55,895 bases of DNA from Planctomycetota bacterium (GTDB lineage: Bacteria > Planctomycetota > Phycisphaerae > Phycisphaerales > SM1A02), in assembly GCA_017859745.1 (NCBI GenBank), contig JAFMML010000013.1, positions 1 to 55,895 on the forward strand, given 5' to 3'. The position numbers and the translations under genes are program-made. Below the pieces are notes generated by a model that was not told where the DNA came from, made no database searches, and was given only the letters and a program-made list of their open reading frames with translations. Below, piece after piece: positions 786-13,161 of the stretch; position 1 is the stretch's first letter, and the number at the start of each line of letters is the position of its first letter.

Positions 786-2681
786 TCACTTGGTCTTCGT
801 CCAGTGACCGAGCATCTCGGCGAGATCGCTTCCCGCAACCACGCCATCCCCATCGACGTCCGCGATCGGATCGTCGCTGCCCCAATGGCCGAGCAGGGTC
901 GCGAGGTCGGCGCCCCCCACCAGTCCGTCGCCGTCGAGGTCCGGTCTCGCCCACCCCGCGCGACTCCACAACAAGGAGAGATCCGCGCGGTCGAGATCCG
1001 CGTCGCCGTCGAGGTCCGCCGCCTCGCGGCCGGGGACGAGCGGCGTCTCGACCCACTCGAGCATCAGGTCGCGATCGGCGGCATCGACGTCGCCGTCGTC
1101 GTCGAGGTCCCCGAGACGACTCTCCGGCAGGATCGTCCAGACCTGATCGGCGGGGAGTCCCGTCAGGACCCGCTGCCCGCCGTCGCACGGCCAGACCACC
1201 ACGATCTCGTCCGCGACCGCGTCGCTGCCGAGGCCGTAGTGCAACGTCGTCTCGTGCTGGGCGAGATAGCCGTTCCCGCCCACGAGGACCTGGCGCCACT
1301 GAGCCCGCTGCCGCTTCGGTCCGCCGTGCCGGACGATCGCGACGGCGCCGACGCCGTGCCAGTTCGGAAACTCCCCGGCGATGCGAAGGCGGAGCCAGCG
1401 GCGATCCGCGGTCGCCTGGTTGAAGAAGATTTCCACGGGGTGACTCAGGTTGTTCAGCAGGACGTCGAGGTCGCCGTCGAGATCAAGATCGCCGTGCGCC
1501 ACCGTGAACGCGTCGGCCCCGTTGCCCGCGAGACCGGACACCGGCCCGATGTCGACCATGGGCGGACCACCGTCGTTGCGATAGAGCGAGTTCCCTTCGT
1601 CCTCGCTGACGACGTAGAGGTCGAGGTCCGCGTCGTTGTCGAAGTCCCAGAAGGTGGATCCCCAACTCATACGATCGTGGGTGCACCCCCACGCCTCCTC
1701 GGCCCGCACGAAGTCCGAGGGCGACTGCTGCAGCAGCAGCAGATTCGACCCCTCCATCGGCGGCACGTCGTTCACCGCGTTCGTCACGTGGATGTCGGGG
1801 CGGAGATCGCCGTCGAGATCGCCGATGCCGGCACTCATCGAGCACATCCCGATGCCGGTGCCGGTCTCCTCGGTGACGTCGACGAAGACTCCGCCGACAT
1901 TCCTCCAGAGACGGTTGGTCTGCTTCAGGTTGCCGCGGTCGTTCGCCAGGAAGAGATCCGGCCAGCTGTCGCCATCGTGGTCGAACATCGCACTCTGAAG
2001 ACTCGGCTGCGAAGAGGCGACGCCGAGCGCGACCGCGACCTCCTCGAAGGTGCCGTCGCCGCGATTGCGGTAGAGCAGGTTTCGCGACTCGCCACCCGGC
2101 AACGGATCGTGGTAGGTGCACACGTGCAGGTCGAGCCATCCGTCGCCGTCGAAGTCGGCGACGCTGGCGCCGGAGGTCCGACGCGTCGCGCCGAGACCGC
2201 TGCTCTCGGTCACATCGGTGAACTGGAACCCGCCGTCGTTTCGGTAGAGGCGGTCCGGTTCGGCCCACTGGCCGAAGAAGAGATCGAGATCCCGATCCCC
2301 ATCGTGGTCGAAGGCCAGCACCACCGACGCCTTGGCGAGCGGCAGGAGTCCGGCCGTGAAGGACCGGTTGACGAAGTGGCCGCCCCCGTCGTTCTCGAAG
2401 ATGCCCGGCAGGCCGTTGGAACGACCCACCAGCACGAGATCCGGATCACCGTCCCCGTCGAGATCCGCGATGGCGTTGCCGAAGCCGGCGGAGCCCTCGG
2501 TGAGCGCGCCCCACGGACCGCGCATCGTGTATTGGACCCCGCGGGCCCAGGACTCCTCCGTGAACAGCGGGTCCTGCGGCGCCGCCGACGCGGTCGCGGT
2601 CGCGGACACGACGACGAGAAGGACGCCCGCAGGGCGATGTGGAGATCGACGCCGATCCTGACACGAGTTCGCGTTCGTCAT
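786..2681 (-). CDS. Exported FG-GAP/ASPIC protein with C-terminal dockerin-like repeats (copy 2)
   Basis: 631 residues. The ATG at 2681 is preceded by GGAGG and overlaps the previous gene's TGA (ATGA), so translation is probably coupled. A hydrophobic stretch ending ATASAAPQ at residues 17-35 looks like a signal peptide. Then come repeated DxDxDxD segments (for example DLDGDGDPDLVLVG) typical of FG-GAP/VCBS beta-propeller blades, an ASPIC/UnbV-type domain around residues 430-510 (NWHGVGAVAIV, GGNGYLAQHETTLHYGLG), and a tail of about 110 residues with EF-hand-like loops (DLDGDGLVGGADLATLLGHW, DVDGDGVVAGSDLAEML). The tail resembles the dockerin-type domains common in Phycisphaerales exported proteins. 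It is predicted to be a secreted, calcium-binding surface protein; ligand unknown. It is a paralogue of the upstream gene with the same domain order. Confidence 0.85.
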   Translation of the reverse strand: MTNANSCQDRRRSPHRPAGVLLVVVSATATASAAPQDPLFTEESWARGVQYTMRGPWGALTEGSAGFGNAIADLDGDGDPDLVLVGRSNGLPGIFENDGGGHFVNRSFTAGLLPLAKASVVLAFDHDGDRDLDLFFGQWAEPDRLYRNDGGFQFTDVTESSGLGATRRTSGASVADFDGDGWLDLHVCTYHDPLPGGESRNLLYRNRGDGTFEEVAVALGVASSQPSLQSAMFDHDGDSWPDLFLANDRGNLKQTNRLWRNVGGVFVDVTEETGTGIGMCSMSAGIGDLDGDLRPDIHVTNAVNDVPPMEGSNLLLLQQSPSDFVRAEEAWGCTHDRMSWGSTFWDFDNDADLDLYVVSEDEGNSLYRNDGGPPMVDIGPVSGLAGNGADAFTVAHGDLDLDGDLDVLLNNLSHPVEIFFNQATADRRWLRLRIAGEFPNWHGVGAVAIVRHGGPKRQRAQWRQVLVGGNGYLAQHETTLHYGLGSDAVADEIVVVWPCDGGQRVLTGLPADQVWTILPESRLGDLDDDGDVDAADRDLMLEWVETPLVPGREAADLDGDADLDRADLSLLWSRAGWARPDLDGDGLVGGADLATLLGHWGSDDPIADVDGDGVVAGSDLAEMLGHWTKTK

Positions 2682-4594
2682 CCTCCGCCTCCCTGGGTCC
2701 AGTCGATCAGAATTCGTCCGAGATCGGCCCCGTCGACGACGCCGTCCGCGTTCACGTCCGCCAGCGGATCTCCGCCGCCCCACCGCGAGAGCATCTCCGA
2801 GAGATCCGCGGCATCGACCCCGCCGCTGCGGTCGAGGTCGGTGCGTCGCCACCCCGCCCGGTCGAAGAACGGCTCGAGGTCCGACCGGCCCACAGCCCCG
2901 TCGCCGTCGAGATCCATCATCTCTCGACCGGGCAAGAGGTCCTCTTCGAGCCAGGCGAGCAGCAGTGCGAGATCGTCGTCGCCCACGACGCCGTCCTCGT
3001 CGCCGTCGCCGAGGAGATCGGGATGATGGATCGTCCAGGCGGTGCCGGCAGGCAGATTGCGAACCACCCGCGCCGGCCCACCTGCAGGCCACCGGACCTC
3101 GATCTCGTCGATCACGTCGGCTTCGCCGAGACCGAAGTGCAGCACCAGCTCGCTCTGCCCCTTGAAGCCGTTGCCGCCAACGCGAATCTCGCCCCACTGC
3201 TCGACGAGATCGCCCGTGCCGAACACGTCGGCTCGCACCGTCGCCGTCGCGCCGACGGCGTGCCAGTTCGGATGGATCCCGGCGATCCGCAGGCGGCCCC
3301 ACCGCCGCGACGAGCCGGAGTGGTTCACCAGCAGCGCGACGTTGCGTCCCATGTCGTTCTGCACCATGTCGAGATCGCCGTCCCCGTCGACGTCGCCGAT
3401 CACCGAGACCATGGAGTCGCCGTCGGTGCCCTGCACGCCGAAGGTCTCGGCGCACTCCTGCATCGGCGGCGTCCCGACGTTGCGGAACAGCAGGTTGGGC
3501 ACGCAGGAGTTGTTGACGTAGAGGTCGAGGCGGCCGTCGTTGTCGAAGTCCCACAGGTGGGTTCCCCACCCGGTCTCGTCGACGGTGACGCCCCACTCCG
3601 CATCCGATCGGGTCCAGGTGCCGTCCCCCTGACTGAGCAGCAGGTGGTTGCCGGGCGCCGCGCCGAAGGTGACGCCGGTGTTGGTCAGGTAGAAGTCGGT
3701 CAGGCGATCGCCGTTCAGGTCGCCTGCGGCGAGTCCCATCGAGTTCAGTTCGACCCCCGCACCGCTCGGCTCGCTCACGTCGACGAACGCCCCCGCGTCG
3801 TTGCGCCACAGTTGGTTCGCCCCGAAGGCGTTGCGGTTGTCGTTGCTGAGGTACAAGCCCGGCCATCCGGTGTCGTCGACGGTCGCGAAGACCGCCTGGA
3901 ATCCCAGATAGGTCGAATCGACGCCTTCGGCGCCACCGACCTCCGCGAAGGTGCCGTCGCCGAGGTTCCGGTAGAGCAGGTTGCGGGAGAGTGCGGCATC
4001 GGGCGAGTAGTTGCAGACGTAGACGTCGAGCCAGCCGTCGCCGTCGTAGTCGCCCGCGTTGCAGCCCTGCGAATCCATCCACAGGCCGAGGCCGGCCTGC
4101 TCGGTGACGTCGGTGAAGACGAAGTCGCCGTCGTTGCGATGAAGGCGGGTCGATCCGGGAGCCTGCGTGAAGAGCAGGTCGAGATCTCGATCGCCATCGA
4201 AGTCGAAGGCGATCACCCCGCTGCCATCGGCGAGGGGGAACATTCCCGATCCGAAGGATCTATTGAGGAAGTGCCCCGTGCCGTCGTTCTCGAAGATGCC
4301 CGGCAAGCCGTTGCTTCGTCCCAGCAGCACCAGGTCGAGATCGTCGTCGCCGTCGAGATCCGCGAGGGCCATGCCCCAGCCGAAGGCGCCGGTGGCCTGG
4401 TACCCGGGCATCGTGTATTGGATCCCCCGCGACCACCCCTCCTCGGTGAAGGGAAGTTCCTGACCGATGGCGGCAGTCCCGGCAAGACCGATCCCCGACG
4501 CCATGATCACCATGACCACCACGCCCAGCGCGCCCACCGCGCCCGCAGCACCGCGGCGGATCTCCTTCTCTGGCTCTTGAGGACCTGTCGGCAT
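2678..4594 (-). CDS. Exported FG-GAP/ASPIC protein with C-terminal dockerin-like repeats (copy 1)
   Basis: 638 residues from the ATG at 4594, chosen over an in-frame ATG 102 bases upstream because a GGGAG lies a few bases before it and it gives a short basic N-terminus followed by a hydrophobic signal segment (residues 17-45). Domain order: signal peptide, FG-GAP/VCBS blades rich in DLDGDDDLDLVLLG-like loops (about 60-420), an ASPIC/UnbV domain (about 425-510; NWHAVGATATV, GGNGFKGQSELVLHFGLG), then dockerin-like EF-hand loops (DLDGDGAVGRSDLE, DVNADGVVDGADLGRILIDW). This is the general architecture of CRTAC1-like extracellular proteins. First gene of a two-gene unit; the stop overlaps the start of its paralogue. 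Predicted secreted; function unknown beyond calcium binding and adhesion or scaffolding by analogy. Confidence 0.87.
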   Translation of the reverse strand: MPTGPQEPEKEIRRGAAGAVGALGVVVMVIMASGIGLAGTAAIGQELPFTEEGWSRGIQYTMPGYQATGAFGWGMALADLDGDDDLDLVLLGRSNGLPGIFENDGTGHFLNRSFGSGMFPLADGSGVIAFDFDGDRDLDLLFTQAPGSTRLHRNDGDFVFTDVTEQAGLGLWMDSQGCNAGDYDGDGWLDVYVCNYSPDAALSRNLLYRNLGDGTFAEVGGAEGVDSTYLGFQAVFATVDDTGWPGLYLSNDNRNAFGANQLWRNDAGAFVDVSEPSGAGVELNSMGLAAGDLNGDRLTDFYLTNTGVTFGAAPGNHLLLSQGDGTWTRSDAEWGVTVDETGWGTHLWDFDNDGRLDLYVNNSCVPNLLFRNVGTPPMQECAETFGVQGTDGDSMVSVIGDVDGDGDLDMVQNDMGRNVALLVNHSGSSRRWGRLRIAGIHPNWHAVGATATVRADVFGTGDLVEQWGEIRVGGNGFKGQSELVLHFGLGEADVIDEIEVRWPAGGPARVVRNLPAGTAWTIHHPDLLGDGDEDGVVGDDDLALLLAWLEEDLLPGREMMDLDGDGAVGRSDLEPFFDRAGWRRTDLDRSGGVDAADLSEMLSRWGGGDPLADVNADGVVDGADLGRILIDWTQGGGG

Positions 4595-4778
4595 CGAGAT
4601 CTCCCGCCCGGCGACCAGGGAATCTGAGCCCAGGACACGCGGCGAGGCAACTCCTTGTTCACGAATATCCAGCCAGAGGGTGTCCGGACGCGGCACAGAA
4701 TGCGCCGCCCGTACGCCCTGCGACCCACCGCCCGAGAACGATGCAACGTCGCTCGGCCAGTGCTATCGTCGCGCCGCC

Positions 4779-4852
4779 GGGCTGGTAGCTCAGCGGTCCA
4801 GAGCAGTCGACTCATAATCGATCAGACCTCGGTTCGAATCCGAGCCAGCCCA
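4779..4852 (+). tRNA. tRNA with CAU anticodon (elongator Met or Ile2)
   Basis: A 74-base cloverleaf. The acceptor stem GGGCTGG/CCAGCCC is perfectly paired with discriminator A; D stem GCTC/GAGC; anticodon stem GTCGA/TCGAT with loop CTCATAA; T stem CTCGG/CCGAG with loop TTCGAAT. CCA is not encoded. It is not the initiator type, since the anticodon stem lacks three G-C pairs at the loop end. The anticodon arm (GCAGTCGACTCATAATCGAT) is close to that of tRNA-Ile2, whose CAU is modified to lysidine, so the amino acid cannot be assigned safely between Met and Ile. A TGC-TATCGT element at 4761-4769 could be its extended -10. Confidence 0.92.
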
Positions 4853-4950: not shown

Positions 4951-6027
4951 ATGACCCCGCCGAGCGACTCCACTCCAGACGCGACCCCAGAGCCGACCTC
5001 CAACCCGACGCGGACGACCGCCGCTCCGACCCTCGGGAGTCTCGCGACGGCCCCGGCGTCTCCAGTTCCATCGCCCATTTGGATGCGGCGCTGGCTGCTT
5101 GCCGCGGGTCTCTACAACCTCGTCTGGGGTGCCGGTGTGGTCCTCTGGCCGCAGGGACTTGTCGCGGTGGCGGGCCTCGAAATGACCTCGGCGGGCCTCG
5201 CCATCTGGCAGTGTCTGGGCATGGTGATCGGCGTCTACGGCATCGGCTACCTCGCGGCGAGCCTGGCTCCGTTGAAGCACTGGCCGATCACCCTCGTCGG
5301 TCTGCTCGGCAAGATCTTCGGGCCGATCGGCTTCGTCTGGACCGCCGCCCGCGGCGAGATCCCCTGGGCCTTCGGCTGGACGATCCTGACGAACGATCTG
5401 ATCTGGTGGATCCCGTTCGCGCTGATCCTTCGCGGGGCGTGGATTCGATCCCGCTTCGAGGGCGTCTCCGCGGAGGGACCGGCGGACTTCGCGGAACTCG
5501 CCGAGCGGGCGATCGTGCGCACGCCCGGCGCCGCCGGCGAGTCCGACGCCACGCTTGCTGCACGCTCGCGATCTCGGCCGCTGCTGCTGGTGTTCCTGCG
5601 CCATGCCGGCTGCACCTTCTGCCGGGAGGCGGTTCGCGACGTGCTCGCACGGCGCGCCGCGATCGAGTCCGCCGGTGCCGAACCGGTGCTCGTCCACATG
5701 GGAACGCCCGAAGAGGGCGACCGCTTCCTCGAGCGTCTCGGTGCTCGCGCCATCGCCCGCATCTCCGATCCCGAGCGCGTGCTCTACCACGCCGCCGGCC
5801 TCGAACGCGGCACCTTCGGCGAGCTCTTCGGACCTCGAAACTTGGTGCGGGCGATCGCCGCGGCCCGCCACGGCGTCGGCTACGCGATCGGCGATCCCCT
5901 GCAGATGCCCGGAACCGCGCTCGTTCGCGATGGTCGACCGATCCGGGTCCACCGACACCGCTTCGCAGGCGAGCGACCCGACTACGCGACGCTCGCCTGT
6001 CCGGTCCCCGAGGTCGCGGGGGCCTGA
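4951..6027 (+). CDS. Membrane protein fused to a peroxiredoxin/thioredoxin-like domain
   Basis: 358 residues from the ATG at 4951. An upstream in-frame ATG at 4852 is rejected because it overlaps the tRNA end. The N-terminal half has about four hydrophobic segments (residues 45-170; for example LLAAGLYNLVWGAGVVLWP and WTILTNDLIWWIPFALIL). The C-terminal half (about 200-358) is a thioredoxin-fold domain with FLRHAGCTFCREAV, Cys at about residues 221 and 224, the signature of the AhpC/TSA-like SelL-related redox family. The Cys pair should face the cytoplasm or periplasm depending on topology, which I cannot settle. A membrane-anchored thiol redox function is inferred. The 3' end overlaps the convergent copper ATPase gene by 46 bases. 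Confidence 0.75.
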   Translation: MTPPSDSTPDATPEPTSNPTRTTAAPTLGSLATAPASPVPSPIWMRRWLLAAGLYNLVWGAGVVLWPQGLVAVAGLEMTSAGLAIWQCLGMVIGVYGIGYLAASLAPLKHWPITLVGLLGKIFGPIGFVWTAARGEIPWAFGWTILTNDLIWWIPFALILRGAWIRSRFEGVSAEGPADFAELAERAIVRTPGAAGESDATLAARSRSRPLLLVFLRHAGCTFCREAVRDVLARRAAIESAGAEPVLVHMGTPEEGDRFLERLGARAIARISDPERVLYHAAGLERGTFGELFGPRNLVRAIAAARHGVGYAIGDPLQMPGTALVRDGRPIRVHRHRFAGERPDYATLACPVPEVAGA

Positions 6028-8228
6028 CCCGAGCCCGGATCGGCCGGGACTCCCGCCTCGCCCCGCCGGAAGCGGCGCCGGAGCCTCAGGGCGTTGCCGA
6101 CCACCGAGAGATCCGACAGGGCCATGGCGCCGGCGGCGATCAGCGGCCCGTGCACGCCGAGCAGGCCCAGCGCCGCCACGGGAATCATCGAGGCGTTGTA
6201 GGCGAAGGCCAGAAACAGGTTCTGGCGGATCGTCGAGAGCGCCATGCGGGCGATCCGTACGGTCTCCGGAATCGAAGTGGTTCGATCGCCGGGGACGACG
6301 ATGCCCGCGGACTCGATCGCCACCGTGGTGCCCGAGGCCATGGCGAGGCCGACCTCCGCGCCGGCGAGCGCCGCGGCGTCGTTGATGCCGTCGCCGACCA
6401 TGACGGTGCCGGAACCGTGCGCGGCGATCACGGTCCGCTTGCGATCTGGATCCGCATCCGCCTCGACGTCGGCAGCGTCGATGCCGACGGCCTCTGCGAC
6501 CTCGAGAGCCCGCGATCTGCGGTCGCCGCTGAGCATCGAGATCTCGAGCCCCAGTTCTCGCAACGCCGCGACCGCAGCCTTCGCATCGGGTCGAGGACGA
6601 TCGGCGAGATCGATCCGCCCCCACGGTTCACCCGCCACGATCACCTCGCACGAGGCGGTCTCGCTTCGAAGCACCTCCACGGTCCGCCCTTCGACGGTGC
6701 CCCGGACGCCCCGGCCGGGCAGCGCCTCGAAGTCGTCCACCGCACGAATCCTGGCGCCGCGGTCCCGCGCCGCCGCGACGATCGCCTTCGCCAGCGGGTG
6801 CTCGCTCGCCTGCTCGACGCTTGCCGCGATCGACAGGAGTTCGACCGCACTGCGACCGCCCTCGATCTCGGTGCCGACCACCGACGGTCGTCCGGTGGTC
6901 AGGGTGCCGGTCTTGTCGAAGACGACCCGGCGGGCTCGCCCCGCCCGTTCGAGACTCGCGGCGTCCCGAACGAGGATTCCGCGGCGGGCGGCATGGCCCG
7001 TGGCGACGACCACGGCAAGCGGCGTCGCGATGCCCAGCGCGCAGGGACAGGCGATGATCAGGACCGTGACCATCGAGATCGCACCGGTCGCCGGATCGCC
7101 CGCGATCGACCAGACGCCCAGGGTGACGAGGGCGATGGCGACCACCACGGGCACGAACACCGCCGAGACCCGATCCGCGACCCGCTGGATGTCGGCGCGG
7201 CTCGAACGGGCCTCCTCGACCATGCGGGCAATGCGGGCAAGGGTGCTGCCGCGGCCGGCGACCGTGGCCTCGACGATCAGCGAGCCGGTCGTGTTGATCG
7301 CGCCCGCGATCACCGGATCGCCGACGCTCCGATCGACGGGGAGGCTCTCGCCGGTCAGTACGCTCTCGTCGAGGGCGGAGCGACCCTCGATCACCCGACC
7401 GTCGATCGGCACCCGTTCGCCGGGATGGATCCGGACCACGTCGCCGGAGACGAGCATCGACGAGGGCACCTCCTCGAAGTCCCCGTCCTCGCGACGTCGC
7501 AGGGCGAGTTCCGGCTGCAGGTCGAGCAGTTCCCGAATCGCGGCGCCGGCCCCGGCGGAGGCACGGGCCTCGAGCCAGTGGCCGAGGCTGATCAGGCCGA
7601 GCAGCGCCGCCATCTCGGCGAAGTAGGTCGGCTGGCCTTCGAGGACTCCTCGCCCCCGCCCGACGAGCACCAGCACGCTGAAGATCCAGGCCGTCGTCGC
7701 ACCGATCGAGATCAGCGTGTCCATGTTGGACGTGCCGCGCTTCGCCGCTTCGAACGCCGAGCGGTAGAAGCCGCCGCCGACGAACGCGAGCACGCCGGTG
7801 CCGGCGACGGCCAGGCCGACATCCAGCCACGTCGGATGCCCCAGCGCGTGGGCGCTCCAGTGAAGGACCTCCATCGGAATCCAGCACGAGATCGCGGCGA
7901 CCGCCCGACGCCGCCAGCCGTTGCGATGCCGCAGATCCTCTCGCTCCAGGCGGCTTCGAAGTTCGTGCGGATCCTCCTCGACCTCGTCGGGGGCGGCGGG
8001 GAAGCCGCTGGCGGTGATGCGTTCGGCGATCTCGTCCGGGTCGAGTCCGTCGCCCCGGACGAGGGCTCGACCGCCCCCGACATCGACCGAGGCCGAATCG
8101 ACGCCGGGGAGGACCTCGATCGCCCGGCGCACCGACCCCGCACAGCCGGCGCAGTGCATGCCCTCGACGCGAAAGGCATGGACCCGAGTGCCGGGGGTGC
8201 GCGGAGTGGTGGAGTCGGATCGAGTCAC
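5982..8228 (-). CDS. copA: Copper-transporting P1B-type ATPase (CopA-like)
   Basis: 748 residues, GTG start. It exports Cu(I) from the cytoplasm using ATP. Domains: an N-terminal heavy-metal-associated domain with MHCAGC (Cys 26 and 29), transmembrane helices, an actuator domain with TGES, a CPC metal site in the membrane at about 394-396, the phosphorylation motif DKTGTLT with Asp at about 438, the SEHPLA nucleotide-binding motif, a GDGIND hinge, and final helices with YNASMIPVAALG and MALSDLSVV. The CPC and YN motifs favour Cu(I) (P1B-1). The last helix has Met-Ala-Leu-Ser-Asp rather than the usual Met-Ala-Leu-Ser-Ser. It stands alone, with no metal-chaperone or regulator gene beside it; the convergent redox fusion is the nearest neighbour. 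Confidence 0.93.
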   Translation of the reverse strand: MTRSDSTTPRTPGTRVHAFRVEGMHCAGCAGSVRRAIEVLPGVDSASVDVGGGRALVRGDGLDPDEIAERITASGFPAAPDEVEEDPHELRSRLEREDLRHRNGWRRRAVAAISCWIPMEVLHWSAHALGHPTWLDVGLAVAGTGVLAFVGGGFYRSAFEAAKRGTSNMDTLISIGATTAWIFSVLVLVGRGRGVLEGQPTYFAEMAALLGLISLGHWLEARASAGAGAAIRELLDLQPELALRRREDGDFEEVPSSMLVSGDVVRIHPGERVPIDGRVIEGRSALDESVLTGESLPVDRSVGDPVIAGAINTTGSLIVEATVAGRGSTLARIARMVEEARSSRADIQRVADRVSAVFVPVVVAIALVTLGVWSIAGDPATGAISMVTVLIIACPCALGIATPLAVVVATGHAARRGILVRDAASLERAGRARRVVFDKTGTLTTGRPSVVGTEIEGGRSAVELLSIAASVEQASEHPLAKAIVAAARDRGARIRAVDDFEALPGRGVRGTVEGRTVEVLRSETASCEVIVAGEPWGRIDLADRPRPDAKAAVAALRELGLEISMLSGDRRSRALEVAEAVGIDAADVEADADPDRKRTVIAAHGSGTVMVGDGINDAAALAGAEVGLAMASGTTVAIESAGIVVPGDRTTSIPETVRIARMALSTIRQNLFLAFAYNASMIPVAALGLLGVHGPLIAAGAMALSDLSVVGNALRLRRRFRRGEAGVPADPGSGQAPATSGTGQASVA

Positions 8229-8847: not shown

Positions 8848-8982
8848 TCGCCCGGCGGCGATGCCGCCGATGTTCGCAAGTCGTCGATTCAGATCATCGA
8901 GAGTCCGGACCACGTGTCCGGTGGCATTCGACGCCGACCGCATCCCGCGTCGGCGGTTCCCCCCCGTTCGAGAACCATCACC

Positions 8983-13161
<4,179 letters not shown>

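Follow-up and report, generated by a model that had tools for sequence, protein, structure and literature searches.

Two overlapping genes for CRTAC1-family proteins

We analysed a stretch of 55,895 nucleotides (the window) from a Planctomycetota bacterium of the order Phycisphaerales, which is the entire contig C3 (JAFMML010000013.1) of a 3.24-Mb draft genome in 147 contigs with 97% completeness (GCA_017859745.1). Its minus strand carries two overlapping coding genes, A and B, whose products end in tails that resemble dockerins. The coordinates and the layout given in a preliminary description made from the sequence alone proved correct. Genomes (G, with G000 for the source genome), contigs (C), loci (L) and families (f) are given by our own numbers. 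The features of the two genes are the following.

2678..4594, minus strand: gene A (P0001, 638 amino acids), CRTAC1-family protein with a double dockerin-like tail
4601..4605, minus strand: GGGAG, Shine-Dalgarno-like site of A (from the sequence)
4463..4594, minus strand: likely signal peptide of A, about residues 1-44 (by eye; model confidence pLDDT below 50 at residues 1-39)
3290..4378, minus strand: FG-GAP beta-propeller of A, about residues 73-435 (Pfam, model, Foldseek)
3035..3259, minus strand: ASPIC/UnbV domain of A, residues 446-520 (Pfam)
2840..3013, minus strand: tail module 1 of A (loops 1 and 2), dockerin-like pair (loops, model, profile)
2693..2839, minus strand: tail module 2 of A (loops 3 and 4), GC-type dockerin (dockerin_GC, loops, model, VIA-align)
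2678..2681, minus strand: ATGA overlap, with the stop codon of A (TGA) on the start codon of B (ATG)
786..2681, minus strand: gene B (P0002, 631 amino acids), paralogue of A
2688..2693, minus strand: GGGAGG, Shine-Dalgarno-like site of B, within the 3' end of A and 6 bases upstream of the ATG (from the sequence)
2577..2681, minus strand: likely signal peptide of B, about residues 1-35 (by eye)
1386..2483, minus strand: FG-GAP beta-propeller of B, about residues 67-432 (Pfam; extent from the alignment with A)
1134..1355, minus strand: ASPIC/UnbV domain of B, residues 443-516 (Pfam)
942..1115, minus strand: tail module 1 of B (loops, module-1 model)
795..941, minus strand: tail module 2 of B, GC-type dockerin (dockerin_GC, loops)

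The GC fractions at codon positions 1, 2 and 3 are 0.71, 0.47 and 0.86 in A and 0.72, 0.47 and 0.87 in B, which is a coding-like skew. The two genes had been described as translationally coupled by the ATGA. The overlap is indeed there; the GGGAGG that B has of its own in the last codons of A makes both reinitiation after A and independent initiation possible. A promoter scan gave 0 sites versus 0.2 in shuffled sequences, and a terminator scan gave 1 site versus 1.0.

Both proteins have the propeller, the ASPIC/UnbV domain and the EF-hand-like tail in the order read before, behind likely signal peptides judged by eye. The FG-GAP_3 repeats score 106.2 bits in A and 122.1 bits in B against a Pfam cut-off of 26.9, and the UnbV_ASPIC domain behind the propeller scores 54.2 and 51.5 bits against 23.4. 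The two proteins are 50% identical across 596 aligned positions, tails included. We predicted the structure of A with AlphaFold2 from a 41-row alignment, with a mean predicted local distance difference test score (pLDDT) of 89.2 and a predicted template modelling score of 0.87. The best solved match of this model by Foldseek is murine CRTAC1 (9etn_A, E 3.1e-30), with template modelling scores TMq 0.63 and TMt 0.73 and a root-mean-square deviation of 4.3, and a profile search with A likewise finds 9etn as its best match (E 8.1e-38). A and B are CRTAC1-family proteins, with a CRTAC1-like fold predicted from the model of A. They share with the murine protein the FG-GAP and ASPIC/UnbV domain types and the predicted fold, while the four-loop dockerin-like tail of A/B and an identity of about 21% in the structural alignment set them apart. 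PMC3123361 treats the Dx[DN]xDG calcium-blade motifs of FG-GAP propellers and of cartilage acidic protein, and PMC12758564 mentions a CRTAC1-family gene beside hydrazine-synthase-like genes.

The tails are dockerin-like

Each of the two tails has four D-x-D/N-x-D/S loops, which in A lie at residues 530, 561, 586 and 613, and in the model of A a helix follows each of them (539-548, 570-580, 595-602 and 622-634). Sequence and profile comparisons agree with this picture. Module 2 of A matches the solved dockerin 6kg9 with E 1.7e-6, module 1 of A matches the double-dockerin 8x39 with E 3.4e-7, and in a whole-genome search with dockerin_GC, the NCBI family model NF041540, A reaches 29.4 bits and B 27.6 bits, just over and just under the cut-off of 29. 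The loops, the model and the sequence support the earlier description of the tails as dockerin-like or EF-hand-like. As a module, the tail is known but lacks an explanation.

Folded alone from a 3-row alignment, the tail of A gave a weaker AlphaFold2 model with pLDDT 67.1. Foldseek with this model has among its first rows 8x39 (E 0.024, probability 0.98) and the dockerin 2y3n_B (TMt 0.73, 1.1 A). When the Foldseek candidates were realigned with VIA-align, the first 27 of the 30 listed rows were dockerins or dockerin-bearing chains with Z from 8.7 to 3.5, all over module 2; the leading ones for this model of pLDDT 67 are 2ozn_B (Z 8.7, 51 residues, 1.0 A) and 2y3n_B (Z 8.4). The tail predicted by itself hence also appears dockerin-like, in a comparison that bears on module 2 and scarcely on module 1. 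For module 1 we built a model of 12 rows including A, B and a third paralogue on contig C79, which score 94, 84 and 83 bits in G000 by construction, as the model holds their own rows; of 221 candidates, 150 were scored, and no other match among these exceeds 33 bits. The matches below this level lie on many of the dockerin_GC places and also on others off that list, e.g. C124:22603-22761 and C39:11346-11480, suggesting that G000 encodes further dockerin-like pairs of other types.

Two known modules come close to these tails. Like the GC-type dockerin of NF041540, A and B end in two dockerin-like repeats, but their scores are around the cut-off and the flanking cysteine pair is absent. Clo1313_0689 of Clostridium thermocellum (8x39) also carries two dockerin-like modules in tandem, the second of which aligns on tail module 2 of A/B with Z 6.1; its body is a protease and cohesins are present, whereas A/B have a CRTAC1-like body and the searches of G000 gave no cohesin. 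According to a review (PMC12484212), the cohesin that the first dockerin module of Clo1313_0689 binds by preference belongs to a cell-bound scaffoldin.

The same tail occurs throughout the source genome

A search of G000 with dockerin_GC gave 65 matches at E≤1, with 20 of them over the cut-off, and a second search with other settings gave 36 matches at E≤0.001. Among 14 control genomes, four have matches at E≤1 (none over the cut-off) and none at E≤0.001, so the weakest of the 65 matches may be due to chance. The tail therefore recurs in the genome and an EF-hand-like fold is predicted for it, the two points on which the preliminary description had staked its view of the tails.

We read 63 tail rows (30 plus 33), representing 62 distinct tails as L219 read as the tail of L019, with two of the 65 places outside this set. 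The row ends at most 15 residues from a stop codon in 58 of the 63, and the remaining five continue to the end of the fetched stretch. Twenty tail proteins of the first 30 loci were scanned for domains, and 11 of them (L002, L005, L007-L012, L016, L018 and L019) pass the cut-off of Dockerin_1. The bodies found on these 20 include M12B reprolysin, alpha-amylase, subtilase, DUF4838, DUF7453, FG-GAP, MopE and BACON. Some 60 proteins with unrelated bodies carry the tail, which makes a role in sorting or anchoring plausible.

The loop pattern fits twice in 29 of 30 tails. This pattern itself requires D/E at position 12 and Trp at position 20 and leaves positions 10-11 free; Gly-Ala stands there in 16 of 29 first repeats and 15 of 29 second repeats. 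In known dockerins these positions contact cohesin. Cysteines were surveyed in the tails of G000 at L001-L030 and L201-L233 minus L219. One before the first loop and one past the last matched residue are both present in 31 of the 62 tails and both absent in 29, the second never occurs alone, and the first occurs alone in two partial matches, L211 and L228. This pairing suggests that a disulphide bridge clasps the dockerin shut. A and B themselves have tails of the cysteine-free class. A further dockerin-like end was seen at L071, in a record titled Deltaproteobacteria, where a 40%-identical CRTAC1-like protein continues into a Cys-rich repeat and a Thr/Ser-rich linker before it.

The tail is near-universal in two families, mostly without a detected cohesin

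We searched 101 genomes including G000, with the family totals counted by hand and four genomes placed through the exosortase list. At E≤0.001 dockerin_GC matches in 77 of the 101: in 59 of 61 genomes of the family of G000 (f1; the exceptions are G011 and G040), in all 12 genomes of f2, and in six of the 28 genomes of f3-f6, where a positive genome has between one and six matches. High counts of tails are lower bounds, with at most 53 places scored per genome and up to 223 candidates seen.

The preliminary description took the tails to imply that a cohesin-like partner may recognise them, and no such partner was found in G000. The Pfam cohesin model PF00963 has 0 matches there at E≤10. It matches in 13 of the 101 genomes at E≤0.01, over the cut-off in seven, with none in G000 or its congeners G001 and G002. 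Cross-read by hand, a cohesin match occurs in 12 of the 77 tail-bearing genomes (G000 counted among them) and in one of the 24 tail-less ones, leaving 65 of the 77 without a detected cohesin. We also built a custom cohesin model (alignment A3) from seven of ten cohesin loci fetched from relatives. It matches with E 5.8e-15 or better in nine of 18 genomes, of which seven supplied its rows and two (G025 and G060) did not. The same model gives 0 matches at E≤10 in G000 and none in G001, G002, G074, G092 and G095, and reaches only E 0.12-0.54 in the f2 genomes G061, G066 and G070. In each of G061, G066, G070, G074, G092 and G095 the tails reach the maximum number that could be scored. G000 is a draft of 147 contigs with 97% completeness, and a cohesin may lie in an assembly gap or be very divergent. 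In the relatives that do have cohesins, there appear by eye to be HYR-like repeats in the cohesin-matching proteins at L152, L155, L156 and L160, and dockerin-like loops in the cohesin chain itself at L155, L156 and L160, comparable to the adaptor of the planctosome model.

Origin of the gene pair

The protein of gene A (P0001) matches in 50 of the 101 genomes at E≤1e-20. A related protein of Phycisphaera sp. RI_241 (L077) shows 40% identity over residues 7-636, and other relatives come from metagenome-assembled genomes of Phycisphaerales or Phycisphaeraceae. In a tree of 53 rows from 62 hits (nine were left out for a score below 230 or a short span), A and B group as sisters (support 100/98), and close to them stands the clade that holds the C79 paralogue and the relatives in G001 and G002. 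This supports the duplication suggested before. A and B each have a branch of 0.64, against 0.27-0.38 in the C79 clade, which points to an old duplication or to fast evolution of the pair; these branches and the 50% identity reject a recent duplication. A conserved orthologous A/B pair is likewise rejected, as neither congener (drafts with 96% and 100% completeness) showed the pair; G001 and G002 each have one relative in the C79 clade and one distant match.

The evidence does not decide for or against the hetero-complex suggested before. An obligate complex of A with B, as the reason for their coupling, appears quite unlikely to us. The ATGA overlap and the tandem layout would fit such a complex, and so would the sister tandem pairs that the tree places in five further genomes (G053, G099, G008, G005 and G082). 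However, the independent origin of these pairs means that no orthologous pair has been kept, and B has its own Shine-Dalgarno-like site. Adjacency is also common in the family. Two matches lie within about 5 kb in 11 of the 50 genomes by eye, or in 12 counting G014, which has one gene in pieces; the stretches fetched in this context were selected for adjacency and are no random sample. Among loci from many phyla, 28 of 80 have at least two CRTAC1-like frames within about 8 kb, with many loci cut by contig ends, so local duplication is habitual in this family. Since the two congeners lack the pair and CRTAC1-like adjacency is common, an obligate A/B hetero-complex is not supported, and the A/B pair is an ordinary case of CRTAC1-family expansion.

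A different arrangement was seen at L163-L166, in four genomes of three genera, where an A/B relative stands beside a second CRTAC1-subfamily member, in tandem in G028 and G060 and divergently in G013 and G029. In the tree the members of the second subfamily form one clade (96/91) and the A-like members form two, one per layout. If any two-protein pair has been kept, we would sooner expect it in this arrangement than in A/B.

Possible roles of the tails

The best explanation in our view, with a probability of about 60%, is that A and B are secreted calcium-dependent binding proteins that are held at the surface or in a complex by a common dockerin-like plug. Both would leave the cell by the Sec route, going by the signal peptides seen by eye, and calcium would order the propeller loops and the tail. 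The propeller and ASPIC/UnbV part may bind an extracellular ligand, either a glycan or a protein, by analogy with integrin-like propellers. The terminal GC-type dockerin would be a common plug into a shared receptor, whether on the cell surface or within a complex outside the cell, and this receptor would be either no cohesin or one too divergent for the models used. Tail module 1 may serve as the neck that joins the plug to the body, and the second gene would encode a variant of the same binding protein and not an obligate partner.

Several points weigh against this explanation. No receptor was found in G000 by the cohesin searches with Pfam and the custom model, so docking is something that we infer. 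A calcium-stabilised cap without a partner would account for the sequence roughly equally well, and ligand binding by the propeller is argued by analogy. Dockerin_1, with a cut-off of 22.9, has no match in A at E≤1 and gives 15 bits in B; hmmscan with dockerin_GC gives 23.6 bits for A and 22.0 for B, both below the cut-off of 29, and thus disagrees on A with the whole-genome search. Calmodulins also match the profile of A (E around 0.002), and Foldseek with the tail alone found nothing below E 0.001, with calmodulin-like chains among the first rows, rank 1 included.

The tail might instead be just such a calcium-stabilised structural cap or spacer at the C-terminus, with no dedicated receptor, which we consider unlikely. 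The lack of a cohesin match in G000 is in keeping with a cap, as are the usual calcium ligands in the tail loops and the more confident model of the tail when attached to its body, though that model used 41 rows versus 3. However, a cap would hardly explain why unrelated bodies end in the same module, why this module is near-universal in two families and rare in the other sampled ones, as an address tag would be, or why positions 10-11 are conserved though they are not calcium ligands. A classical cohesin-dockerin complex, with its cohesin missing from the draft or too divergent to be seen, is unlikely in our judgement. A cohesin/dockerin "planctosome" was proposed in 2019 for freshwater Planctomycetes (Nemodlikiaceae; PMC6461901), with planctomycete dockerin proteins that include M12B peptidases; G000 likewise has a tailed reprolysin (L003). 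Cohesins do occur in some relatives, several of their cohesin chains have dockerin-like loops by eye, and the assembly is in 147 pieces. The proposed complex, as described there, needs cohesin-bearing anchor and adaptor proteins, and none was found in G000; only 12 of the 77 tail-bearing genomes have a cohesin match, and the custom model was empty or weak in the nine genomes named above.

That the tail marks proteins for processing of the exosortase type is highly improbable. G000 does encode two exosortases, one of them amid tail-bearing genes on contig C114. A C-terminal hydrophobic helix, the feature of exosortase/PEP-CTERM substrates, was not seen on reading the A and B tails, and exosortases are present in 100 of the 101 genomes with or without the tail; they thus do not track it, and the exosortase was rejected as the machine of the tail by this distribution. 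The frame on C114 (L219:2936-4990, plus strand) has 685 amino acids, is nearest to the XrtD and XrtW models at scores under their cut-offs, and lies amid four tail-bearing frames within about 18 kb. The SprA_N model of type IX secretion has no match in G000, and the control genomes gave none either.

Beyond the docking of A and B by a common plug, we speculate that the GC-type dockerin could be a general address tag of the two phycisphaerian families, recognised in a calcium-dependent way by one receptor other than a cohesin, with A and B among its clients; this wider proposal is tentative and has the odds against it. If true, dozens to perhaps 200 proteins per genome would be plugged into one receptor, and the tail would be a plug whose familiar socket is missing, giving a form of surface display parallel to the exosortase and type IX secretion systems. 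The sharper question hence concerns the tail and not the pair, as the tail has 65 matches in G000 and is near-universal in f1 and f2, mostly without a detected cohesin. The distribution of the tail and the tail-less f1 members G011 and G040 make a receptor search by comparison of gene contents possible. The term "GC-type dockerin" was not met in the literature searched, and among the papers listed by wider searches the planctosome proposal was the only directly relevant one and the nearest published idea found. The claim that such tails are not well described in this group holds in part, since NF041540 exists and the planctosome had been proposed in 2019.

Other features of the window

A tRNA-Met gene at 4779-4852 lies divergently upstream of A. 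Further on, the window has a copper-type P-ATPase at 5982-8228 on the minus strand and SecA at 8914-13161 on the plus strand, both recognised by eye; the SecA frame of 1415 amino acids presumably exceeds the usual length of SecA. At the start of the contig, positions 1-240 hold imperfect short GTCGGAC-type repeats, which are read in part as (S-D-x)n in an open reading frame at 140-757 on the plus strand, and these repeats are perhaps the reason why the contig ends here.

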